From Burkholderiaceae bacterium (GTDB lineage: Bacteria > Pseudomonadota > Gammaproteobacteria > Burkholderiales > Burkholderiaceae_F), in NCBI GenBank assembly GCA_019236735.1, contig JAFAIM010000060.1:1-64000 (forward strand): 64,000 nt of DNA. The letters run 5' to 3'. Positions 17,255 to 30,778 of this stretch are shown piece by piece. The notes beneath the pieces are model-generated. The model saw only the letters and a program-made list of their open reading frames with translations, searched no databases and had not been told where the DNA came from. A program made the position numbers and the translations under genes. Numbering within the stretch: the first letter of the stretch is position 1; every line of letters starts with the position of its first letter.

Positions 17255-17857
17255 ATGATGGTGCTCTATTCAGGAACGACCTGTCCATTTTCACAGCGTT
17301 GCCGGCTGGTGCTGTTCGAAAAGGGGATGGATTTCGAGATCAAGGATGTCGACCTCTTCAAGAAGCCGGAAGACATCAATGTCATGAACCCGTACGGGCA
17401 GGTGCCGATCCTGGTGGAGCGCGACCTGACGCTGTACGAGTCGAACATCATCAACGAATACATCGACGAGCGCTTCCCGCATCCGCAGCTGATGCCGGCT
17501 GATCCGGTGATGCGCGCGCGCGCGCGCTTGTTCCTGTTCAACTTCGAGCGCGAGCTGTTCGTCCATGTGCAGACGATCGAGAACACGAACAACCAGAAGG
17601 CGATCGAAAAGGGCAAGGTGTTGATCCGCGACCGCTTGACCCAGCTCGCCCCGATCCTGCTCAAGAGCAAGTACATGTTGGGCGACGAGTTCTCGATGCT
17701 CGACGTGGCGATCGCGCCGCTGCTGTGGCGCCTCGACCACTACGGCATCGACCTGCCCAAGAGCGCCGCTCCGCTGATGAAATACGCCGAGCGCATCTTC
17801 AGCCGCCCGGCGTATATCGAGGCGCTCACGCCCAGCGAGAAGGTCATGCGCCGCTGA
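17255..17857 (+). CDS. sspA: Stringent starvation protein A (GST fold)
   Basis: SspA is a glutathione-S-transferase-fold protein that binds RNA polymerase and affects starvation and acid responses. The 200-residue protein has a thioredoxin-like N-terminal domain (LYSGTTCPFSQRCRLVLFEKG), the NPYGQVPILVERDLTLYESNIINEYIDE region and an all-helical C-terminal half. sspB follows after 37 bases, as in many proteobacteria. The petABC genes that sit just before sspA in many Burkholderiales are not here. Confidence 0.96.
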   Translation: MMVLYSGTTCPFSQRCRLVLFEKGMDFEIKDVDLFKKPEDINVMNPYGQVPILVERDLTLYESNIINEYIDERFPHPQLMPADPVMRARARLFLFNFERELFVHVQTIENTNNQKAIEKGKVLIRDRLTQLAPILLKSKYMLGDEFSMLDVAIAPLLWRLDHYGIDLPKSAAPLMKYAERIFSRPAYIEALTPSEKVMRR

Positions 17858-17894: not shown

Positions 17895-18395
17895 ATGCCC
17901 GACCTGTCGACCAAGCCGTACCTGATCCGCGCCATCTACGAGTGGTGCAACGACAGCGGCTTCACGCCCTATATCGCGGTGGCGGTCGGCGAGGGCGTTC
18001 GCGTTCCACCGGAGCACGTGAAAAATGGTGAGATCGTTCTGAACGTCTCCGCTTTGGCCACCAACCGCCTGACGCTCGGCAACGAGGCAATCGAATTCCA
18101 AGCCCGCTTCGGCGGCGTGCCGCGCGAAGTCTACGTACCGATCGAACGAGTGATAGCGGTGTACGCGCGCGAAAATGGCCAGGGCATGGCGTTCGAGTCA
18201 GCGCGAACCATTCCGATCAGCGCGCCCGGCCCCGTGTCCGCGCAGCCGGCGCCGCCGCGTGCCGGCGCGCTCGAGTTGGCCTCCAGCGGCCCGCAGTTGG
18301 CCTCCGGCGGCCCACAGACCCTGAGCGGTCCACCGACTCGTCCACCCGGTGGGCGGACTCCCGGCGTGCGACCGCGCCTGAAGCGGGTCAAGTAA
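17895..18395 (+). CDS. sspB: ClpXP specificity-enhancing factor SspB
   Basis: SspB tethers ssrA-tagged proteins to ClpX. The 166-residue protein has the dimeric substrate-binding domain (about 1-110: TKPYLIRAIYEWCNDSG, TPYIAVAV, NVSALATNRL, FQARFGG) and a proline-rich flexible tail. The tail ends in a short basic segment (PRLKRVK), which in known SspB docks to the ClpX zinc domain. Confidence 0.96.
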   Translation: MPDLSTKPYLIRAIYEWCNDSGFTPYIAVAVGEGVRVPPEHVKNGEIVLNVSALATNRLTLGNEAIEFQARFGGVPREVYVPIERVIAVYARENGQGMAFESARTIPISAPGPVSAQPAPPRAGALELASSGPQLASGGPQTLSGPPTRPPGGRTPGVRPRLKRVK

Positions 18396-18454: not shown

Positions 18455-18530
18455 GCCGGCTTAGCTCAGTTGGTAGAGCAGCCGCCTTGTAAGCGGCAGG
18501 TCGCCCGTTCGAGTCGGGCAGCCGGCACCA
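18455..18530 (+). tRNA. tRNA-Thr (anticodon UGU)
   Basis: The sequence folds as a cloverleaf: acceptor GCCGGCT pairs with AGCCGGC, D-arm GCTCAGTTGGTAGAGC, anticodon stem GCCGC/GCGGC with loop CTTGTAA (anticodon TGT), T-arm with GTTCGAGTC, and an encoded CCA end. Its 3' 53 bases recur exactly at 19701-19753. Confidence 0.97.
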
Positions 18531-18531
18531 G
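18478..18531 (+). repeat. attL-like direct repeat (3' half of tRNA-Thr)
   Basis: This 54-base block, from the anticodon arm to one base past CCA, is identical to 19701-19754. Integrases commonly use the 3' half of tRNA genes as attB, which leaves an intact tRNA and a displaced partial copy. This is the copy within the working tRNA gene. Confidence 0.8.
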
Positions 18532-18638
18532 AATGCAAGTATCTCGGCGGTAGTGTCCGTGCGCACAACTCGTGGATAAGAACCTCGTTCCGAGCCCGCA
18601 ACAGATTCCTTCTTGGCGGATCTTCCAGTCCATTATTT

Positions 18639-18965
18639 TTGCCGCCTTCCTGCCACTCGCGTCTTGTTCGTTCTTTGACAGATCGTCGTTCTATGAGATC
18701 CGATCCGAAGATCATGTCCGTGCAAGTTTGGTTTGAGCAGCGATCGAGGCCGGAGGGACTCAGCGTGCGCGTTGATCGCGCGTCCACGCCTCAGGAGGAT
18801 GAGCCCATTCGCAATGCCCAGCTAAGTGTTGAAGCGGTGCTGAAAGCATCGAACTGTCAGATGTGGCGCTTCGAGGTCAAACATTTGCCTGCCATGAAGT
18901 TGGCGAATCGCGCAGATGGGTATGGTGCTCCCACACGGAACACGCGGCTCTTGGAACGGTTGTGA
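18639..18965 (+). CDS. Doubtful hypothetical ORF in the mini-island
   Basis: An open frame of 108 codons lies in a stretch between 18531 and 18980 that otherwise holds nothing recognisable. The product matches no family I know, has many in-frame methionines and no clear ribosome site, and the base composition is less GC-rich than in flanking genes. A segment VQVWFEQRSRPEGLSVRV could be a real domain fragment. I list it so that the gap is not read as empty. Confidence 0.2.
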   Translation: MPPSCHSRLVRSLTDRRSMRSDPKIMSVQVWFEQRSRPEGLSVRVDRASTPQEDEPIRNAQLSVEAVLKASNCQMWRFEVKHLPAMKLANRADGYGAPTRNTRLLERL

Positions 18966-18980
18966 CGCCGCTGCTGCGCC

Positions 18981-19325
18981 TTAGCCAATCGCCTCGGCTA
19001 GCAGTTTGCGCAGGGTCTTGGTGTCGGCGGCCGAGAGCGTCCCCATGGTGCGGGCGACGAGGCTACGCTCGATGGTGGTGAAGACGGGTTTGAGAACGGA
19101 GGCCTTGATCAGGCCAGTGGCCTGCCAGTCGGCGATCATGGCCTCACCGAAGGCGAGCGGTTGGCGCACCTGCCCGGTGATCGCCATGATCACCAGATCG
19201 CGCCGGGTGGCGTTGTAGCTGCTGCTGGAGACGACGACGGCGGGCCGCTTCTTGGCGCCCGACTGGTCGGTGAATGGAAACGGCACCAACACCACGTCGC
19301 CGAAGCCGAACTTGGCCGTGGCCAC
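18981..19325 (-). CDS. MazF/PemK-family mRNA interferase toxin
   Basis: The 114-residue protein has the PemK/MazF beta-barrel pattern: FGFGDVVLVPFPFTDQSGAKKRPAVVVSS at the start and SVLKPVFTTIERSLVARTMGTLS near the end. Such toxins cleave mRNA or rRNA in single-stranded regions. The start is a GTG at 19325, three bases after the antitoxin stop, so the pair is coupled. The locus lies in the tRNA-bounded segment, where it could act as an addiction module. Confidence 0.88.
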   Translation of the reverse strand: MATAKFGFGDVVLVPFPFTDQSGAKKRPAVVVSSSSYNATRRDLVIMAITGQVRQPLAFGEAMIADWQATGLIKASVLKPVFTTIERSLVARTMGTLSAADTKTLRKLLAEAIG

Positions 19326-19328
19326 CGG

Positions 19329-19529
19329 TTACATCCGATCGTAGGCGGCGTCCTCGTCGTTGTTCCACACCGCGGCGAAACTCGCCTCGCTCGCCTTGGC
19401 GGCGGCACGCGTGAAACGCTGCTCGTCGTCGCGCGCGCGCAGGAAGTCGACGAAGTCTTCCACTTCAGCCAGGCGCTGCGGGGCGAGCTGCCGGATCTTC
19501 TCGATCAGGGCTTGTTCGGCTGCATTCAT
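19329..19529 (-). CDS. Antitoxin of the MazF-type pair
   Basis: The 66-residue acidic protein begins MNAAEQALIEKIRQLAPQ and continues with RLAEVEDFVDFLRAR, typical of DUF2281-like antitoxins that pair with PemK toxins. The C-terminus (AVWNNDEDAAYDRM) is the usual toxin-wrapping tail. An AAGGAG site precedes the ATG at 19529. Another ATG at 19559 also has a strong GGAGG site and would add ten residues; both are plausible. Confidence 0.82.
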   Translation of the reverse strand: MNAAEQALIEKIRQLAPQRLAEVEDFVDFLRARDDEQRFTRAAAKASEASFAAVWNNDEDAAYDRM

Positions 19530-19700
19530 CGCGTTCGACTCCTTCGGATAGCCCATCATGTCACCTCCCAGCCTGCGCCAGCGCCAGGTCGAGCATCTCA
19601 ACGACGACTCTGCCGAATGCGTTTGGCAACATATTGCACTAGGTTCACTCTGGATTCTGGTAGAAAATTAGCACACAAGTCATTGAATCCTGGGGCAAGG

Positions 19701-19754
19701 GCAGCCGCCTTGTAAGCGGCAGGTCGCCCGTTCGAGTCGGGCAGCCGGCACCAG
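19701..19754 (+). repeat. attR-like direct repeat (partial tRNA-Thr copy)
   Basis: Exact copy of 18478-18531. It lacks the acceptor 5' strand and D-arm, so it cannot make a tRNA. It marks the right end of the mini-island and directly abuts the decayed HDOD gene. Confidence 0.8.
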
Positions 19755-19756
19755 TC

Positions 19757-20440
19757 ACGATCGACCTGACGACGAAGTGGTTCGCCGACCTGTTTAAGCG
19801 GTTCCCGGGCGTCGGGGCGCCCGCTGCGGGCCGGGCCGAGGTCACGCCGCCCGTGCGCGAATCGGCAACCGAGGCTGCGAAGCCCAATGCGGCACCCGCA
19901 CGGAGTTTGTCAAACGCGGGCGGCGAGGATGTCGAGCGGCGCTTCACTGCATTGCTGCTCGGCGTCGCTTCGCCGTCTGCAACGCAGGCGAGAATGGCCG
20001 AGTGACGCGCCATCGAGCAGATCGACGCGCTCATCGCCAACAACCGTGGTGCAAGCCTAGTGCCCAGGCTGCAGCTCGAATTGCCTCGTTTAATCCGTCT
20101 GGTCAGACGCGATGATGTATCAGCGCGCGACCTGACCGAGCGTCTTTCACACGATCCGACGCTGAAACCAACCCGTTTCACGCTTACCTGGCCGGGATGG
20201 TCGCGAATATCGGATGGGTCGCCACGCTTCGAGTGCTCGACACCGAGTACCCGCACGACATGCCGCCGTCTTTCGACGAGTTTCATGATTGCTGAGCAAC
20301 GCTGCGGCCAGATTGTCGGAGCAGATCGCGCGCCAATGGGATTTTCCCCCGAACGTATGCGACGCCGTCCACGAACGCGCGGTTTGCTCGTCGGGCACGG
20401 CGGTCAGCGATCTCGCGTTCGCGATTGGTTTGGACTCTGC
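19757..20440 (+). pseudogene. HDOD-domain gene remnant
   Basis: Pieces of an HDOD signalling protein are readable in all three frames. The first frame gives IDLTTKWFADLFKRFPG, then a TGA at 20003-20005, then LELPRLIRLVRRDDVSARDL with TERLSHDPTL. The second, from about 20170, gives NPFHAYLAGMVANIGW. The third, from about 20290, gives AARLSEQIARQWDFPP. The start codon is missing at the attR junction. One stop and two frame changes make it non-functional. HDOD proteins commonly link to c-di-GMP and cell-cycle signalling. Confidence 0.65.
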
Positions 20441-20442
20441 AT

Positions 20443-20673
20443 CTACCAGCGCTGCGGTGGCCTGCGCGACGTGTGGAAGACTCGTAGCACTTCAACCACG
20501 TCCGAGCGAACGCGGTAGGGAACCATATGGCGAGTGTTCAAGACGACGAGCTCGCGGGTATTCGGGACCCGTCCCGGTCGGCCTAGGCCGGGCTGATCGG
20601 CGAGCTGTGCAACTGCCTCGAGTACGCGCTGCACGACTAGGCGCGCGGCCGCACCAAGCTTGATTTGTACGTT
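20443..20673 (-). pseudogene. ParE/RelE toxin remnant (C-terminal two thirds)
   Basis: The frame reads AAARLVVQRVLEAVAQLADQ, then PGLGRPGRVPNTRELVVLNT and YRVRSDVVEVLRVFHTSR, a clear ParE-family toxin body. It runs directly into the stop codon of the cyclase gene at 20674-20676, so the N-terminal strand and the start are gone. A GTG at 20634 could start a 63-residue fragment. No antitoxin is adjacent. I infer a truncated toxin created when the neighbouring segment joined here. Confidence 0.7.
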
Positions 20674-23304
20674 TTATTGGATCGTCTCGAGCCAGCTGCG
20701 CGCCTCCTCCATCGCCTGCTCGTAGGCGAGTGCGTTGCCGGCAGCCTCCGCCGCTGCGAACGACGCTGCTCCGAGCGTTTGGTGCGCTTTTGAGACCAAC
20801 GCCGGCAGATATGCGTCGTCAATCGGTTCGCGGCGATAACCGATTCGCCTCGCTTGAGCTTCGGCCGCGCCGTGGAATCGCGCGGCCAAGTCCCATTTTT
20901 GACACAACACCGCCAAACCGGCGCAGTAATCGAGCACCGCATGTCCGATCTGCTTCGAACCGATCTCGACGGCGATCGACAGCGTCTGCCGCAGCACTCG
21001 CGCAGCTTCGGACGCGCGGCCGGACTCGATCAACACGCTCGACAGATTGCAAAGCAAAAAGGACAGCACGCGCCGATCGCCGGCCGCGCGGATCAGCGCT
21101 ACCGCCTCCTCGTATAGCGGCTGCGCCAGTTCCGGTTGCCGTTGGCTGCGAAACAGCTCGGCCAGGCCGTTGACCGCCACCGCCAGCAGGCGCTTGTCAT
21201 TGAGCTGGCGCGAGAGCGCCAACGATGCCTCGAAATGTTCGCGCGCCTCGGCTGGCTGCCCGTGCGCAATGCAGGCGTATCCGTACAAGCGGTGCGCCTC
21301 GGCGATCGACGGCACATCGCCGATCTCGCGCGCGATTGCCAGACTCTCGTCGGCGAAGGCTTTGGCCCCGTCGTAACTGCCCGTCAGGTACCCGAGCTCG
21401 ACCCCGCCGAGCAGCGCCCGGCTGCGCAGCAGGTCGCGCTCGTGCGCGCCGTCGCGCCCGAGCGCCTCGACCGCCAAGCGGTAACCGGGCGCCAAGTAGC
21501 CGCGCGCAATCAGCCAGTTCTTGATTGCAATGAACAGCGCCAGGCCGCTGCGGGCACCGTTGGCGACGTTTGCGCACGACTCGAAAGCCACCAGCAAGTT
21601 GCTCCACTCGGCATCGAGCTGGGAAAAAGAGGTCTTTGGCGGGCGGCCGGCATGCGCTTCGGCGCCTTCGGCGAGCGTCAGGAAAAAGTGCAGATGACGA
21701 GCGCGCGCGGCCGCCTCATCGTCGCAGTCTCTCAGCCGATCCGCCGCGTACTGCCGCACCGTCTCGAGCAACTGGTAGCGCCCTTGATCCGGTTCGGCGA
21801 TCACGAGCGACTTCTCGACCAGGTTTGCGAGCAAGTCGAGCACATCCGGCTTGACGACTTCTCCGCCGGCCCCGACCGCTTCCGCCGCCTCGAGCGTCCA
21901 GCCGCCGGCAAATACGGACAGGCGACGCAGCAGGATCCGCTCGGAGGACGTCAACAGCTCGTAGCTCCAGTCGATCGACGCGCGCATCGTCTTGTGGCGC
22001 GGCAGCGCCGTCCGATCTCCGTGCGTGAGCAAGCGAAACCGGTCAGACAGGCGCTCGGCGATCTGTTCCACCGACAGCGCGCGAGTGCGTCCGGCCGCCA
22101 GTTCGATCGCGAGCGGAATGCCGTCCAGGCGCTGGCAGATGTCGGCCACCGCGTTTGCACCCGCCTCCTCGATCTGGAAATCGGGCTGCACCGCGAGCAC
22201 CCGCGCCAGAAAAAGGCGCGCCGCTTCGTACTGCGTCAGGATCGACGTCGTGATCGCCGCGCCGGCATCGGGAGTGGAAAGCGATCGCACTGGGTAGGTG
22301 GTTTCGCCGGCCACCCGCAAAGGCTCTCTGCTCGAAGCCAGGATGCGCACGCGCGGACCGCTTTGCAGCAGCGCGGCCGCAAGCTCGGCACAGGGATGCA
22401 GAAGATGCTCGCAGTTGTCCAGGATCAGCAGCATGCAGCGGTCCTGCACGAATCGCATCAGCGACTCGACCATTGGCCGCCCGCTTTCCTCCTTTATGCC
22501 GAGGATCGACGCCGCCAGCTGCGCAACGAGGCGAGCGTCGGTCAAACCCGCCAGTCCTACAAACCAGACGCCGTCCGGGTAGCCGTCCATCAGATCGGCG
22601 GCGGCCTGCAAGCACAGGCGGGTCTTGCCGATACCACCCGGACCGAGCAACGTCAGCAGGCGGGTTTGGCCGAGCAGTTCGGTGACCTGCGCAAGTTCGC
22701 GCTCGCGGCCGACAAAGGATGAGGCTTGCAACGGAAGATTGTTCGGTGTCGCTTCGAGCGAGCGCAGCGGCGGAAAATCTTGCCGAAGGTCCGGGTGCAG
22801 CACCTGGTAGACGCGTTCCGGACGCTCGAGGTCGCGCAGTCTCACCAAACCGAGGTCGCGCAGCGCGAGTTCCTGCGGAGCACGCTCGCCGATATCTGTG
22901 ACCACCGCCTGCGACAGCAGCACCTGCCCGCCATGCGCAACGCCGGCGATTCGCGCGGTGCGGTTGATCGCTGGGCCGAAGAAGTCGTTGCCCCGGCGTT
23001 CGGCGAGCCCGGCGTGCAGTCCGCAACGCACCGGCAGCTCAATGCCGCAGGTCACGGTCGGATCGGCCAGTGCGCGCTGCAATTGAACCGCTGCCAGGAC
23101 CGCGTCCAGCGAGCTGTCAAACGCTGCCAACGCGCCATCGCCAACCATTTTGACCAGTACGCCGCGATAGCGCTCGATCGTCTCGCACGTGATCGCGTCG
23201 TGGCGCGCGAGCCCCTGCGCCATTCGCTCGGGCTCCGACTCCCACAGGCGAGAGCTGCCCTGAATGTCGGTGAAAAGGTAGGTGGTGTGGGCCGTTTGGG
23301 CCAT
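20674..23304 (-). CDS. Class III cyclase - STAND ATPase - TPR protein
   Basis: The 876-residue protein starts MAQTAHTTYLFTDIQGSSR. Its N-terminal class III adenylate/guanylate cyclase domain (about 5-170) keeps metal aspartates D13 (FTDI) and D56 (VGDG), a lysine at K52, and N114/R118 in INRTARIAG. An AfsR/NB-ARC-type ATPase follows, with a P-loop GPGGIGKTRL near 221 and LLILDNCEH as Walker B, then tandem TPR-like helices to the C-terminus. No DNA-binding domain is seen. It could make a cyclic nucleotide in response to a ligand. It is the last gene of the leftward ycaO-tfuA set, 111 bases after tfuA. The ATG at 23304 is preferred over a TTG at 23355. Confidence 0.88.
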   Translation of the reverse strand: MAQTAHTTYLFTDIQGSSRLWESEPERMAQGLARHDAITCETIERYRGVLVKMVGDGALAAFDSSLDAVLAAVQLQRALADPTVTCGIELPVRCGLHAGLAERRGNDFFGPAINRTARIAGVAHGGQVLLSQAVVTDIGERAPQELALRDLGLVRLRDLERPERVYQVLHPDLRQDFPPLRSLEATPNNLPLQASSFVGRERELAQVTELLGQTRLLTLLGPGGIGKTRLCLQAAADLMDGYPDGVWFVGLAGLTDARLVAQLAASILGIKEESGRPMVESLMRFVQDRCMLLILDNCEHLLHPCAELAAALLQSGPRVRILASSREPLRVAGETTYPVRSLSTPDAGAAITTSILTQYEAARLFLARVLAVQPDFQIEEAGANAVADICQRLDGIPLAIELAAGRTRALSVEQIAERLSDRFRLLTHGDRTALPRHKTMRASIDWSYELLTSSERILLRRLSVFAGGWTLEAAEAVGAGGEVVKPDVLDLLANLVEKSLVIAEPDQGRYQLLETVRQYAADRLRDCDDEAAARARHLHFFLTLAEGAEAHAGRPPKTSFSQLDAEWSNLLVAFESCANVANGARSGLALFIAIKNWLIARGYLAPGYRLAVEALGRDGAHERDLLRSRALLGGVELGYLTGSYDGAKAFADESLAIAREIGDVPSIAEAHRLYGYACIAHGQPAEAREHFEASLALSRQLNDKRLLAVAVNGLAELFRSQRQPELAQPLYEEAVALIRAAGDRRVLSFLLCNLSSVLIESGRASEAARVLRQTLSIAVEIGSKQIGHAVLDYCAGLAVLCQKWDLAARFHGAAEAQARRIGYRREPIDDAYLPALVSKAHQTLGAASFAAAEAAGNALAYEQAMEEARSWLETIQ

Positions 23305-23415
23305 GACGGCGGAGGGCGGATGCTTGCCGCCCCTCCAAAGCGGCAATCGTCGCAAGCCTACTTTACGGCACCATGGCGCAGTGCACCAGGGGTGGATCGG
23401 AAGGGCCTTCTTGCG

Positions 23416-24147
23416 TCAGCTCAGCGGCGGCACGTCGGCAATCTGCTGCTCGAATTGGCGCCTCCAGTATTCCGTCGGGCGGAATCCTGGGCGAGGGCGC
23501 GACGATCCGCCTGAGCGATCCCCGAGGTGCCGCAGCAGAATCCGCGCATCGAGCCGCTTGATATCGACGTAGCTGCGACGGTAGGCGTCGAATTGTCGCG
23601 AGCCAGCCGATTTGCCAAGCGCCTCCGTGAATTGGCGTTGCAGCTGCTCGGGCGTCCGATCGGAGAAATGCAGCGGCTTCATTCGCGCGATCAACTCCGC
23701 CTCGATCTGGCGGTCGATCGATCCTTGCCGCCGCAGCGCTCGCAGCGTGAAGCGGATGTTGGCCATCGCGTCGGACAGCGGCCGGAAGTCGAGCTCGCGC
23801 GGGCAGTGCAGAACAGCTACCTCGTCGTCATCGGTCCAGGCACCACTGCGAAACAACCGGAAGATGCTGCCCAGGCCCAGCATCCCCAGCCCCTTGAGCT
23901 CGGCGGCGCGAAGTGCGCCCATGCTGCCGGCACCGGTCACTTCCACCCCCTCGGAGATCGCGAACAGGATCTCCTTGTGCCAGACCGATGGCAGGTTGCC
24001 GAAGACTCCGTCGACGATGCCGATGCGGCGATAGCCGGCTTCGACCGCCCGAAACACGGAACCCAGCGCGACCGGACCGAAGCGAGTGACGCCATCCTGA
24101 ACCGGCTCGCGATAGAGCGATGGACCGGCAAATACGCAGCGCTTCAT
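23416..24147 (-). CDS. TfuA-like protein, partner of YcaO
   Basis: The 243-residue protein has the TfuA core: FAGPSLYREPVQ, GIVDGVFGNLPSVWHKEIL and EVTGAGSMGALRAAELKGLGM, within about 1-130. TfuA proteins act with YcaO enzymes in making trifolitoxin, in thioamidation of archaeal McrA and in thioviridamide-type peptides, probably by delivering sulfur. The C-terminal 110 residues are basic and may bind the partner. ycaO lies 15 bases upstream in the same direction. Confidence 0.9.
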   Translation of the reverse strand: MKRCVFAGPSLYREPVQDGVTRFGPVALGSVFRAVEAGYRRIGIVDGVFGNLPSVWHKEILFAISEGVEVTGAGSMGALRAAELKGLGMLGLGSIFRLFRSGAWTDDDEVAVLHCPRELDFRPLSDAMANIRFTLRALRRQGSIDRQIEAELIARMKPLHFSDRTPEQLQRQFTEALGKSAGSRQFDAYRRSYVDIKRLDARILLRHLGDRSGGSSRPRPGFRPTEYWRRQFEQQIADVPPLS

Positions 24148-24162
24148 CGATTCGATGCGCGA

Positions 24163-25461
24163 TTAGCCTGCACACTGAGCCAGCAGGCGCTGCATCCGAG
24201 GTCCCGGCGTGTACCCGGGACTGCCCAGCAGTCCCTCCAACCCGGGAACTGTGACATGGAACACCGGCACCTGCAGGGCCTGCTGTGTCAGATCGACTGC
24301 GATTGCCTGCGGCAAACCCTCGGCGCTCAGTTCCGACAGCACCCACGCTAGCAGCTCGTCGATGGTCTTCAGCGACGGCGCTTCGGGCATGTCATCCGGG
24401 TCGAGCGTCTGCGGCTCCTCTTCGAGTTGCCGCGCCCAGCTCGCGCCGGCGTCGTCGTCGATCCGAATTGCATGCTTGTATCTGGACCAGAGCACGTCGT
24501 CGCGCCCCCCGGCGATGTGCGTCAAGCGGCTCTGCAGCGCCTCTGTGATCGCACGCGACAGCGCGACACGGCGGTACGGGTGGCAGCCGAAGCCGGCCGC
24601 ACGCTGCGGGTAGAAAGTGCGGCCGGACGAATCGAATACCCGGCAAAAGAAGCATGGGATCGGCACCGTCTGCGACACGTACCAAGCGGCGGCGTATACG
24701 CCGGCCGCGTCGCACCGCTCGATCAGCCACCGGTTGTATGGGTCCGACACGCGATCGAGGCGCAGCCTGCCGCGCGGGTCTTCTGCTCCCAGCTGGCGGC
24801 GTGCGATCCAGAGCGAGGCTTGGTCACGCTCGATCACTTCGCATAGGGCATGCAGCAGCGCTTCGCTTCTGGTGTTTCCCGACGCCAAGCCGTTGGACGA
24901 GGCGACGAACAATCGGGCGGGCTGGCGGCGCGAGCGGTGGCCCAGATGGATGCAGTCGCGCGGCACTCGGCGCATCTTGCCCGACACCAGATCGCGCCCC
25001 TCGACCCATTCGGAACGCGAGTCTTGGCGCAGCCTCGCGCTGGGGCGTATCGGCAAAAGGAGCGGACTGGCACAGGTCCTGTCCGCAACGGCATCGCTTA
25101 AGGTTTTCAGCTGGCCGCGCGGAACGAAGTGCTCGGCGTGATGCACTTCGATGCTTTCCATCAGGCCGGAGGCCTGCGCCAGCTCGTGCGTCAGCCCTTT
25201 GCCTTGCGAGACCGTTAGCGATTGCGCCAGCGGGCGCACCACTTGCCACGTGGGTACGCCGACATGATCCAGTCCGGTGACGTTGCCGACCCGTGTGATG
25301 CCGATTGCGGCCATAAGGCCGCGCGCCCGCGCAAGGGTCGTTCCGATAGAGGCGGCGCGGATGGTTCCACCGAGGTCGAATGCGCGATCGCGGGTGCCGG
25401 GTTCGCGACCGGTGCAGGGAGCTGTCACAGCCGCCCGGCACGATTCCGTCTCAGTCTTCAT
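24163..25461 (-). CDS. YcaO-domain ATP-dependent peptide-backbone modifying enzyme
   Basis: YcaO proteins phosphorylate peptide-bond amides to form azolines or, with TfuA, thioamides. The 432-residue protein shows the three conserved stretches: QASGLMESIEVHHAEH, ALLHALCEVIERDQ and SRAITEALQSRLTHIAGGRDD, which carry the ATP/Mg glutamates. The C-terminus (GYTPGPRMQRLLAQCAG) lacks the PxPxP tail of azoline-forming YcaOs, consistent with the TfuA-dependent class. The ATG overlaps the stop of the small upstream ORF by 11 bases, so the two are coupled. Confidence 0.92.
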   Translation of the reverse strand: MKTETESCRAAVTAPCTGREPGTRDRAFDLGGTIRAASIGTTLARARGLMAAIGITRVGNVTGLDHVGVPTWQVVRPLAQSLTVSQGKGLTHELAQASGLMESIEVHHAEHFVPRGQLKTLSDAVADRTCASPLLLPIRPSARLRQDSRSEWVEGRDLVSGKMRRVPRDCIHLGHRSRRQPARLFVASSNGLASGNTRSEALLHALCEVIERDQASLWIARRQLGAEDPRGRLRLDRVSDPYNRWLIERCDAAGVYAAAWYVSQTVPIPCFFCRVFDSSGRTFYPQRAAGFGCHPYRRVALSRAITEALQSRLTHIAGGRDDVLWSRYKHAIRIDDDAGASWARQLEEEPQTLDPDDMPEAPSLKTIDELLAWVLSELSAEGLPQAIAVDLTQQALQVPVFHVTVPGLEGLLGSPGYTPGPRMQRLLAQCAG

Positions 25462-27533: not shown

Positions 27534-28688
27534 ATGGCCGATTCGGAACACTCGTCGCAGGATCGCTCGCTCGAACCAACTGCGAAGCGACTCGAGGACG
27601 CTCGCCGCGAAGGGCAGGTCCCCCGCTCGCGCTATCTGTCCCATCTGCTGATCCTCGGCTCGGGCGTGCTCGGATTGAGTTTGGCGGGCTCGCGCATGGC
27701 GCAGGCATGCCGCGGCGTTCTGGCTGCGGGGCTGAGCTTCGATGCTGCCGCGGTGTCCGATCCAGGAAAAATGGGAGTGCGTCTGACGCAGCTGAGCGTG
27801 GATGCCGCCTGGGCGGCGCTTCCGCTGCTGGCCGTGTTGGCGGCGGCAGCGGTGGCCGCGCCGCTGCTGATCGGTGGTTGGAACTTCGCGCCACGGGTGG
27901 TGGCGCCGCATTTCGAGCGGCTCGACCCGCTGGCGGGCATACAGCGGCTGTTCTCGCTACGTGCCTTGGTGGAGCTCGGCAAGGTGGCGCTGGTCGCTGT
28001 GCTGCTGTCGCTGGTCGGTGGCAGCTACATCCTCGACCACATGGGCGAGTTCGCCACGCTGTCGCTGCAGAGCCTGCCCGCCGCGGCCGCGCAGCTCGGA
28101 TCGATCCTGTTGGCGGCATTCGTTCTACTCGCCGGAACCTTGGCGGTCGCTGCCACGATCGACGTGCCGTACCAGATCACGCGCTACCGCTCGATGCTGC
28201 GGATGACGGTCGAGGAAGTGCGCGAGGAGCAGAAGCAGAGCCAGGGCGATCCGCAGATCAAGATGCGGGTGAAGAAGGCGCAGCGCGAGATCGCGCGCAA
28301 GCGAATGATGGCGGCGGTGCCCAAGGCCGACGTCGTCGTCACGAACCCAACCCACTTCGCGGTCGCATTGAAATACCTGCAGCAGCGCCACCGTGCACCG
28401 GTCGTGGTCGCCAAGGGCATGGGAGCGGTGGCGGAGCGGATCCGCGAGATCGCCGCCGAAAATGGCGTTCCCAGTTTGCAAGCTCCGCCGCTGGCGCGCG
28501 CGCTGTACCGCCACGTGGAGATTGGCGCCGAGATCCCGGCAGCGCTGTACACGGCGGTGGCGCAAGTGCTCGCGTACGTGTACCAGCTGCGCCGCTATCG
28601 CGATGGCGAGGCCGAGCGTCCGCAGGAGCCCGGCGACATCCCGATTCCACCCGGCCTCGATCCGTTCGAGCCTAGGGCAACGGCATGA
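27534..28688 (+). CDS. flhB: Flagellar export apparatus protein FlhB
   Basis: FlhB is the substrate-specificity switch of the flagellar type III exporter. The 384-residue protein has a basic N-terminus, four hydrophobic segments (about 35-210) and a cytoplasmic domain with the self-cleaving NPTH site (N271-P272) in VVTNPTHFAVALKY. It overlaps flhA by four bases. Confidence 0.97.
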   Translation: MADSEHSSQDRSLEPTAKRLEDARREGQVPRSRYLSHLLILGSGVLGLSLAGSRMAQACRGVLAAGLSFDAAAVSDPGKMGVRLTQLSVDAAWAALPLLAVLAAAAVAAPLLIGGWNFAPRVVAPHFERLDPLAGIQRLFSLRALVELGKVALVAVLLSLVGGSYILDHMGEFATLSLQSLPAAAAQLGSILLAAFVLLAGTLAVAATIDVPYQITRYRSMLRMTVEEVREEQKQSQGDPQIKMRVKKAQREIARKRMMAAVPKADVVVTNPTHFAVALKYLQQRHRAPVVVAKGMGAVAERIREIAAENGVPSLQAPPLARALYRHVEIGAEIPAALYTAVAQVLAYVYQLRRYRDGEAERPQEPGDIPIPPGLDPFEPRATA

Positions 28689-30778
28689 ACGCCCTGGGCT
28701 CGCTGTTCGACCATCCGCTGCTGCGCGACGTGCCCTGGCGGTCGCTCGGCGTGCCGCTGCTGATCTTCCTGGTGCTCGCCATGATGATCATCCCGCTGCC
28801 GCCGTTCCTCTTGGATCTGCTGTTCACCTTCAACATCGCGCTGGCGCTGGTGGTGCTGATGGCGGCCGCGTATACGCGTCGGCCGCTCGATTTCGCCACG
28901 TTCCCCACGGTGCTGCTGTTGACGACCTTGATGAGGCTGTCGTTGAACGTGGCCTCGACTCGCGCGGTGCTCACGCAGGGGCATACCGGCCCGGCGGCCG
29001 CGGGCAAGGTGATCGAGTCGTTCGGGCATTTCGTGATCAGCGGCAACTTCGCCGTCGGCCTGATCGTGTTCTCGATCCTGGTCGTGATCAACTTCGTCGT
29101 TGTCACCAAAGGCGCCGGCCGCATTGCGGAGGTGGCAGCCCGCTTCACGCTCGACGCGATGCCGGGCAAGCAGATGGCGATCGACGCGGATCTGAACACC
29201 GGTGCGATCGACGACAAGGAAGCGCGGCGCCGCCGCGCCGAAATCGCACAGGAAGCCGATTTCTACGGCGCGATGGACGGCGCCAGCAAGTTCGTACGCG
29301 GCGACGCCGTCGCTGGAATCCTGATCATGTTCATCAACGTGATCGGAGGACTGGCGATCGGCATGTTGCAGCACGACCTGACGTTCTCCGTCGCGGTGGG
29401 CAACTACGTGCTGTTGACGATCGGCGATGGCTTGGTTGCACAGATCCCGTCCCTGATGATCTCGATCGCCGCCGGCCTGATCGTCTCGCGCGTCGGCCGC
29501 GAGGGCTCGGACATCGGAGTCCAGCTGGTCGAACAGCTGTTCGGCACGCCGCGCGCGCTCGGCATCACTGCGGCGATCCTGTTCGTGTTGGGCGTGATCC
29601 CAGGAATGCCGTGGCTCGTGTTTCTGCTCCTGGCGACAGCTTGCGGGTCGGCGGCACGCCGGCTGTGGATGCGAGAGCAGCGCGCACTGCAGGCGCAGGC
29701 GCGCACGCAGGCGGCACCGCCCGAGACACCTTCGCAGGAAGCCAGCTGGGACGACATCGTTCCGGTCGACGTGCTCGGGCTGGAGGTCGGATACCGGCTG
29801 ATTCCGCTGGTCGACCAGAATGCTGACGGCGAGCTGCTGAAACGAATCAAGGCGATCCGCAAGAAGTTCGCCCAGGACATCGGATTCTTGCCGCCGCCGG
29901 TGCATATCCGCGACAACCTGGAACTGAAGCCCAGCCAGTACCGGATGCTGCTCAAGGGAGTCGTGATCGGCGAAGGCGAAGCCTTCAGCGGGATGTGGCT
30001 TGCGATCAACCCGGGTGGAGTGACGCAGGCGGTTCCGGGAACGCCGACCCGAGATCCGGCGTTCGGGCTGCCGGCGATCTGGATCGAAACCCGCACGCGC
30101 GAATCGGCACAAGTGCTCGGGTACACGGTGGTCGATTGCGCCACCGTGGTCGCCACTCACGTCAATCACCTGCTGTTGACGAGCGCCGGCCAGCTGATGG
30201 GGCGGTCCGAATCGCAGGCGTTGCTGGACCACGTCGCCAAGTCGCAGCCCAAGCTGGTCGAAGACCTGGTGCCCAAGCTGATTCCGCTGGGAACGCTGCA
30301 GAAGGTGCTTTCGAACCTGCTCGACGAAGGGGTGCACATCCGCGACGTTCGCACGATCGTCGAAACGCTCGCCGACGCTGCCACGCGCACCACCGATCCG
30401 TCCGAACTGACGGCGCAGGTGCGGACCGCGCTGCGCGCATCGATCGCCCAGTCGTTGTTCGGCAACTCGCGCGAACTGCCGGTGATCGCATTGGACCCGC
30501 AGCTGGAGAAGGTGCTTTCGCAGTCGGTCGGCGCGGCGAACGAGGCGCCGGCGTTCGAGCCGGGGCTGGTCGAGCTGCTGCAGCGCGGCGCCGCAATCGC
30601 GGCCAAGCGCCAGGAGGATGTCGGCCTCAGCCCGACGCTGCTCGTGCCCGATCGCCTGCGCATGCCGCTTACTCGGCTGCTGCGTCGATCCGCGCCGCGG
30701 CTGCGAGTGCTGGGCCACGCCGAAGTTCCCGAGACCAGCACGATCCGCGTCAGCACGGTGCTGGGCGCGCCCGCTTGA
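28685..30778 (+). CDS. flhA: Flagellar export gate protein FlhA
   Basis: FlhA forms the export gate ring. The 697-residue protein has about eight membrane segments (1-320) with the FHIPEP-family loop (KGAGRIAEVAARFTLDAMPGKQMAIDADLN and QEADFYGAMDGASKFVRGDAVAG) and a large cytosolic docking domain. It begins on the flhB stop. Confidence 0.97.
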   Translation: MNALGSLFDHPLLRDVPWRSLGVPLLIFLVLAMMIIPLPPFLLDLLFTFNIALALVVLMAAAYTRRPLDFATFPTVLLLTTLMRLSLNVASTRAVLTQGHTGPAAAGKVIESFGHFVISGNFAVGLIVFSILVVINFVVVTKGAGRIAEVAARFTLDAMPGKQMAIDADLNTGAIDDKEARRRRAEIAQEADFYGAMDGASKFVRGDAVAGILIMFINVIGGLAIGMLQHDLTFSVAVGNYVLLTIGDGLVAQIPSLMISIAAGLIVSRVGREGSDIGVQLVEQLFGTPRALGITAAILFVLGVIPGMPWLVFLLLATACGSAARRLWMREQRALQAQARTQAAPPETPSQEASWDDIVPVDVLGLEVGYRLIPLVDQNADGELLKRIKAIRKKFAQDIGFLPPPVHIRDNLELKPSQYRMLLKGVVIGEGEAFSGMWLAINPGGVTQAVPGTPTRDPAFGLPAIWIETRTRESAQVLGYTVVDCATVVATHVNHLLLTSAGQLMGRSESQALLDHVAKSQPKLVEDLVPKLIPLGTLQKVLSNLLDEGVHIRDVRTIVETLADAATRTTDPSELTAQVRTALRASIAQSLFGNSRELPVIALDPQLEKVLSQSVGAANEAPAFEPGLVELLQRGAAIAAKRQEDVGLSPTLLVPDRLRMPLTRLLRRSAPRLRVLGHAEVPETSTIRVSTVLGAPA

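Follow-up and report, generated by a model that had tools for sequence, protein, structure and literature searches.

Chromosomal toxin-antitoxin (TA) modules have been seen as selfish stabilisers, as leftovers and as tools of the host, and the matter is debated. The locus described here brings that question down to a single tRNA gene: how did a TA pair come to lie between an intact tRNA-Thr and a second copy of that tRNA's 3' half, and what has kept it there? The pair lies in a window of 64,000 bases, the whole stretch of DNA analysed here, which comprises bases 1-64,000 of the 138,956 on contig C29 of a 95-contig draft genome (the host genome, G000). Different TA pairs at several tRNAs of this genome, being nearly all the recognisable cargo between attachment (att) sites, serve as natural replicates. 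With them it becomes testable whether TA modules are the last island genes to survive or lone travellers in the form of very small integrative cassettes.

An exact repeat of the tRNA-Thr 3' half

The first-pass annotation had described an exact 54-base repeat of the tRNA-Thr 3' half 1,223 bases downstream, and our alignment confirms it: the two copies (Table 1) are spaced 1,223 bases start to start, and the match extends to 57 nt at 98% identity (from 18475 and 19698). The repeated block, which we take from tRNA numbering to begin just before the anticodon stem, belongs to the sole tRNA that ARAGORN finds in the window. A search of G000 placed the tRNA itself first (1.8e-34) and the distal copy second (2.7e-22); what follows, at 3.5e-8, is a different tRNA, so that the genome contains no other long second copy of the tRNA-Thr 3' half.

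Table 1. Positions and contents of the tRNA-Thr locus (window coordinates) and of the other tRNA-side loci of the host genome.
Feature	Position	Strand	Size	Evidence or content
sspA-like gene, host backbone	17255-17857	+		name presumed from the ORF translation
sspB, host backbone	17895-18395	+		SspB, 115.6 bits
tRNA-Thr(TGT), intact, proposed integration site	18455-18530	+		ARAGORN
Proximal att copy: tRNA-Thr 3' half through CCA plus one base	18478-18531	+	54 nt	exact repeat
DNA with no recognisable gene	18532-18980	.	449 bp	scans of ORFs 18639-18965 and 18572-18736
PemK/MazF-family toxin, GTG start	18981-19325	-	114 aa	PF02452, 42 bits (cut-off 23.1)
Probable antitoxin gene, from ATG at 19529	19329-19529	-	~66 aa	ORF open to TTG at 19601
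Distal att copy: displaced tRNA-Thr 3' half, no 5' half	19701-19754	+	54 nt	exact repeat
tRNA-Thr interval			1.17 kb	PemK/MazF and probable antitoxin
tRNA-Cys interval			1.08 kb	TacA1 antitoxin and GNAT
tRNA-Ser interval			1.25 kb	RHH and PemK
tRNA-His island	L187:275-6280 (contig C81)		6 kb	integrase at tRNA, DUF4238 between, Gp49/HTH_3 pair at far repeat
tRNA-Phe interval			10 kb	includes a PIN-domain gene
tRNA-Leu unit A				BrnT and CopG-type antitoxin, HTH_3 proteins, sub-threshold HigB piece
tRNA-Leu unit B				PemK and MazE
tRNA-Leu unit C				Phd/YefM fragment, 25.0 bits, below the 29.8 cut-off
tRNA-Leu unit D				PemK and MazE-like
tRNA-Lys flank, no repeat				Unstab_antitox and ParE
tRNA-Arg(CCG) flank, no repeat	L184:79-780			DUF433 and DUF5615 pair directly behind the tRNA
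tRNA-Val flank, no repeat				HigB with HTH; AbiEii outside the screen

Compared with the opening 23 nt of the tRNA, the 23 nt preceding the distal copy are the same at only 7 positions, which leaves this copy with no tRNA 5' half; the 30 nt following one copy and the 30 nt following the other coincide at 6 positions. The repeat is therefore neither a decayed tandem tRNA, a reading that the first-pass annotation had set against its own, nor a simple segmental duplication. A larger island bounded by a further tRNA-Thr copy was also rejected: the rest of the contig, which runs on for ~119 kb past the distal copy, gave a single match, internal and 15 nt long, at a distance of 23.7 kb downstream, which we judge to be chance. 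Insertion at a tRNA by an integrase duplicates the 3' part alone, on one side, and leaves a complete tRNA gene behind, just as is seen here, and the footprint of integration proposed earlier is supported by a repeat confined to the 3' half beside an intact gene. In P22-type integration, which takes place at the anticodon loop of tRNA-Thr, the core is ~50 nt long and runs from the anticodon region to the 3' end. The present repeat resembles that core in length and starting region, whereas no phage genes were recognised between its copies.

The DNA between the repeats holds the toxin gene, the probable antitoxin gene and little else recognisable, and its GC content is 0.602, compared with 0.654 for the whole contig. 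In the stretch beside the tRNA, the ORF at 18639-18965 (+) has no match in Pfam, NCBIfam or PHROGs, and that at 18572-18736 (+) none in NCBIfam or PHROGs. As the earlier note had remarked, the interval is too small for an integrase: 1.17 kb leaves no room for one, and among its scanned ORFs the only matches are to PemK/MazF-like families, antitoxin-like families and unnamed PHROGs.

The toxin-antitoxin pair

In addition to its Pfam match, the toxin matches phrog_1936, a MazF-like family of PHROGs, at 40.1 bits; its score for the NCBIfam MazF equivalog is 21.1 bits against a cut-off of 120, so that by this test it is not MazF sensu stricto. The candidate antitoxin ORF lies 3 bp upstream of the toxin gene and resembles DUF2281 (20.4 bits) and VapB (18.3 bits), both below cut-off. 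The MazF-type pair first read from the translations thus has behind it a PemK/MazF domain over its cut-off and a small upstream ORF with sub-threshold antitoxin matches; PADLOC returned no match for the pair in the window.

Relatives of the toxin were taken from 31 loci with up to 6 kb of flank, 21 of which carry titles that we read as betaproteobacterial, and the best 15 of the 31 are 67-77% identical to it. The DNA match spans both genes (at least 19024-19517) in 17 of these loci and crosses the junction less fully in six more. This homology ends at the edges of the pair (window 18977-19549), except in locus L119, which additionally matches a ParE remnant at 20454-20604 (69%, in a different order). 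No tRNA-Thr lies beside the toxin relatives within the flanks covered; one of the 31 loci shows a tRNA gene, a tRNA-SeC ~1.7 kb from the toxin. Among 66 other genomes of the host's family, one (G067) encodes a close homologue (74%) and three encode distant ones (29-37%). The ratio dN/dS for the toxin is ~0.23-0.27 against three relatives (dN 0.16-0.17, dS 0.62-0.76), the fourth (L114) being misframed and left out, and this indicates that the toxin is under purifying selection relative to its homologues.

The tRNA-Thr locus in relatives

In 25 of 30 sspB loci, that of G000 included, tRNA-Thr(TGT) lies within 1.5 kb of sspB. Beyond the tRNA, 6 of 14 relatives, some of them represented by little flanking DNA, carry a ubiX-grxD-prmC-prfA-hemA cluster that runs towards it (gene names read from the translations of one genome). 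In both G000 and its genus mate G001 this cluster is found on a contig other than that of tRNA-Thr; the flank beyond the distal copy has therefore been rearranged in the genus, and the cluster does not offer a clean empty site for comparison. The backbone beyond the repeat of G001, when sought on C29, gave no match past the tRNA. In G001 a cstA gene lies between sspB and tRNA-Thr (L040:6227-8401).

The arrangement is not fixed among relatives, a possibility that the first-pass annotation had raised against itself. Among 28 relatives whose tRNA-Thr loci were scanned at a repeat score of at least 14, four of them with ~1 kb or less of downstream DNA, a 3'-end repeat other than a full second tRNA is present in two, G001 and G022, and a full tandem tRNA-Thr in G071. 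The repeat of G001 is 18 nt long and 2,277 bp away, and encloses a Fic-family gene that reads as apparently frameshifted near its N terminus; this interval has no blastn match to that of the window. The repeat of G022 (15 nt, at 1,759 bp) encloses a small multidrug-type transporter and a phosphoesterase piece, as read from translations. Since the cargo differs in G000, G001 and G022, the tRNA-Thr site has been used more than once.

The integrase that was predicted to use this tRNA did not come to light in G000 or 11 relatives. Contig C29 carries no match to the tyrosine integrases (PF00589), and by that measure the tRNA-Thr element is not an autonomous island; the whole of G000 contains three tyrosine-integrase genes, one of which adjoins tRNA-His. 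In the 11 relatives we found no tyrosine integrase on the tRNA-Thr contig, several of which are short, or within 300 kb where contigs are long. Viral contigs of IMG/VR hold no exact match to a 44-mer of tRNA-Thr or to a 23-mer of the tRNA-Leu left end (see below), and phages none to the tRNA-Thr element. Of this element, plasmids matched only the tRNA half, in four Paracoccus records; queried with the tRNA-Leu array, they gave 61 matching records, and among the matches listed only its BrnT/BrnA part is covered.

Repeats and TA genes at other tRNAs of the genome

For 32 distinct tRNAs of G000 (34 entries, same-named pairs being represented by one sequence), as much as 20 kb of downstream DNA was searched for repeats scoring at least 15. 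Thirty-eight tRNAs are predicted; of the six left out, five lie less than 5 kb from a contig end, and one of the 32 has only 130 bp downstream. Repeats were found at six of the 32, each reaching or just passing the 3' end of its tRNA: 54 nt at Thr, 31 nt at His, 17 nt at each of Cys, Ser(gga) and Phe, and three copies at Leu(caa). No antisense match scored 15 or more in the 34 entries over the same distance, which excludes chance as the source of the tRNA-Thr repeat. Two control genomes, G009 and G067, have a repeat at one of 78 tRNAs (Fisher P 0.002 for 6/32 against 1/78); their antisense control gave three entries, of which two are matches to a neighbouring tRNA-Ser on the opposite strand and one is a match of 15 nt. 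In G001, where contig ends truncate many of the flanks, tRNA-Thr alone among 30 distinct tRNAs has a repeat. One genome per species was compared, and outside the window the evidence for the pattern comes from a single genome.

All the small intervals of G000 (Thr, Cys, Ser and Leu) carry TA modules. The larger tRNA-His island also has an HTH_17 excisionase-like gene, and PADLOC calls its DUF4238 gene DUF4238-Pers. Beyond the tRNA-Cys repeat lies a Fic gene (L186:1310-2386) with ~79% DNA identity to that inside the tRNA-Thr interval of G001 (L040:4271-5404); the two are oppositely oriented relative to their tRNAs.

The distribution of PemK genes follows the same loci. G000 has six, four of them inside the Thr, Ser and Leu intervals and the other two with no tRNA piece within 1.5 kb; a single PemK gene was found in G067 and none in G001 or G009. 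Together, the intervals at Thr, Cys, Ser and Leu amount to 8.5 kb, or 0.26% of the genome. If the Thr case, being the starting point, is excluded, 7.3 kb contain three of the remaining five PemK genes, for which uniform placement gives P about 1e-7; with the His and Phe intervals added, P is ~3.5e-6. Uniform placement is a naive null here, because TA genes cluster in islands. The four interval PemK proteins are 24-31% identical; three pairs reach E-values near 1e-5, and alignments of the remaining pairs are limited to short pieces. As distant members of one family, they are likely to have been acquired separately.

Origin of the tRNA-Thr interval

We think it probable that the tRNA-Thr interval is a CIME-like integrated element, which has both att sites and no recombination genes and whose TA pair has been kept by addiction. 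An incoming circle with a copy of the tRNA-Thr 3' half would have been recombined into the tRNA by a tyrosine integrase, with the crossover inside the anticodon stem-loop or beside it. With the incoming half a working tRNA would have been restored and the original half displaced 1.2 kb downstream, and all recognisable cargo except the PemK/MazF pair would later have been lost. The pair may have stayed because its loss, by deletion or by att x att recombination, leaves a stable toxin without its labile antitoxin. Three parts of this account are inferences: that an integrase acted, where it crossed over, and that addiction caused the retention. The distal copy has no change in 54 nt, where, by a rough estimate, an insertion dating from the divergence of G000 and G001 (backbone ~77% identical) would show ~5.9, and this points to a fairly young insertion. 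The tRNA-His island, whose integrase and TA pair lie at opposite ends, illustrates a layout that could give rise to a TA remnant.

Several observations count against this reading. No autonomous relative and no tRNA-Thr integrase were found in the searches above, the 449 bp beside the tRNA are not recognisable as island remains, the flank beyond the distal copy is rearranged, and TA genes also adjoin three tRNAs of G000 that have no repeat.

In two papers (PMC5704250, PMC7563491), CIMEs are described as decayed elements that keep their att sites and lack recombination and transfer genes. They measure 1.2-13 kb in Streptococcus salivarius, occur at tRNA-Lys in S. agalactiae, and accrete at tRNA and other target genes (PMC5704250, PMC7563491). 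The intervals of G000 are alike in having kept att sites while losing integration and transfer genes, in their small size and in tandem accretion at one target-gene end. The tRNA-Thr interval has both attachment sites, in the form of the 54-nt repeat, and no integration or transfer gene among its scanned ORFs. CIMEs, as described there, derive from ICEs or IMEs and carry varied cargo, whereas our searches found no parent, for which reason we term the element CIME-like, and every small interval examined in G000 holds TA genes. A second comparison is with Shewanella, in which GI21, with HipAB, lies inside CGI48, itself seated in tRNA-Trp (PMC8978831). As in the tRNA-His island of G000, the integrase there is at the attL end and the TA genes are next to attR; unlike the tRNA-Thr interval, in which only a TA pair is recognisable, GI21 and CGI48 are 21 and 48 kb long and have integrases. 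TA genes are reported to promote island maintenance (PMC8978831; PMC5704250). A single TA element at a tRNA is of a known kind, while a genome-wide set of near TA-only cassettes appears to be new: no report of such a set at tRNAs was found in a literature search outside which most subscription journals fell.

The tRNA-Leu array

The most striking of the loci examined in the genome is tRNA-Leu(CAA), where four TA-bearing units stand in tandem (L195:91-5153, contig C11). Four right ends of ~81 nt, each preceding tRNA-Leu 3' sequences or their remains, fit one profile that was itself built from them (57.7-71.9 bits). The right-end model scores 61-68 bits at the four places. Run on the other 299 genomes of a 300-genome sample of the order, with stricter filters at which faint matches are lost, it matched five of them weakly, with no score higher than 19.5 bits. 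Units A and B have recurring left ends, which are found once more in G001, whose tRNA-Leu flank has Leu-type end motifs and no tRNA repeat. The terminal tRNA copies are identical to the tRNA at 53 of 55 places in unit A and 52 of 55 in unit D, eroded in unit B and cut to 19 nt in unit C. The array looks like an accretion of related elements at one tRNA, with a mixed order of decay and no clean gradient. The tRNA-Thr element was considered as a member of this family and ruled out, as it has no match to the Leu end profiles and aligns poorly.

The array bears on a different origin for the tRNA-Thr element, which we hold to be possible though not likely: that it was never larger, being a minimal TA satellite between att arms that was mobilised in trans by the integrases of other elements and that accumulates at tRNAs as cassettes do in integrons. 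Unit B is compact, with left end, PemK/MazE and right end within 0.87 kb, and unit D fits a PemK/MazE-like pair and right end into 0.8 kb, although its left end falls off the profile. The compact tandem units at tRNA-Leu favour elements small from the start, and the shared right-end motif, the recurring left ends (G001 included) and the distance between the interval PemK proteins agree with such satellites. However, the shared ends are specific to tRNA-Leu and the tRNA-Thr element does not match them. Units A and C contain debris (the HigB piece and the Phd/YefM fragment), as the tRNA-Thr interval contains 449 bp of unassigned DNA, and neither a helper integrase nor an exact IMG/VR match to the 44-mer or the left-end 23-mer was found.

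A broader proposal is that a guild of minimal, non-autonomous, TA-only cassettes docks at tRNAs, is moved in trans by integrases belonging to other elements and builds integron-like arrays such as that at tRNA-Leu, with the tRNA-Thr element as one member; this we advance tentatively and would sooner doubt than adopt. The TA cassettes of chromosomal integrons are small TA units in tandem, every one of which is closed by a recombination site pointing the same way, and the tRNA-Leu array is alike in these respects. The two differ in the sites themselves, which in G000 consist of a tRNA 3' half and ~81 nt beside it.

TA genes beside tRNAs without repeats

TA families were also sought beside tRNAs without repeats, among ORFs no longer than 175 aa that lie within 2.5 kb downstream of the tRNA, where at least 1.2 kb of downstream DNA was present. 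GNAT domains were left out of the count, as was a small HTH-like ORF at locus L182 that has no Pfam match. TA families were found at 3 of 18 such loci in G000 (Lys, Arg and Val), and at none of 31 in G009 (25 of the 28 families listed), 29 in G067 or 18 in G001. At tRNA-Arg the next conserved gene lies ~79 bp away in G001 and ~700 bp away in G000, the extra stretch holding the DUF433-DUF5615 pair, which G001 lacks at this position. Comparison of distant tRNA flanks by tblastx gave mostly noise and was informative for tRNA-Arg and tRNA-His. TA genes at these three tRNAs make it doubtful that integrases alone account for every TA module beside a tRNA, and another route by which such genes reach tRNA flanks may exist.

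If that route were general, TA modules would enter tRNA flanks by illegitimate or homologous recombination, no integration would be involved, and the 54-nt repeat would be a by-product. The repeat-less loci, with the longer tRNA-Arg spacing in G000, fit such an account. We consider it improbable for tRNA-Thr, as the repeats at all six tRNAs are tRNA 3' parts that reach or pass the 3' end, the usual footprint of an integrase, and antisense repeats are absent. Chance, decay of tandem tRNAs or an assembly artefact, which a draft of 95 contigs might invite, is scarcely credible against 54 exact nucleotides with no 5' half, a contig that continues for ~119 kb and controls with a repeat at only one of 78 tRNAs.

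Neighbouring regions of the window

Beyond the distal repeat, bases 19755-20663 are debris, in which an HDOD piece is weakly recognisable, below cut-off, and a ParE toxin that has lost its N terminus (profile positions 30-88 of 89) abuts the next gene; this debris is possibly an older insertion at the same place. On the minus strand, 20674-25461 encodes a large regulator with adenylate cyclase, NB-ARC-like and TPR domains, followed by TfuA and YcaO, and from its domains this is a possible peptide- or protein-modifying TfuA/YcaO locus. FlhB- and FlhA-family genes (Bac_export_2, FHIPEP) at 27534-30778 (+) probably belong to a flagellar cluster.
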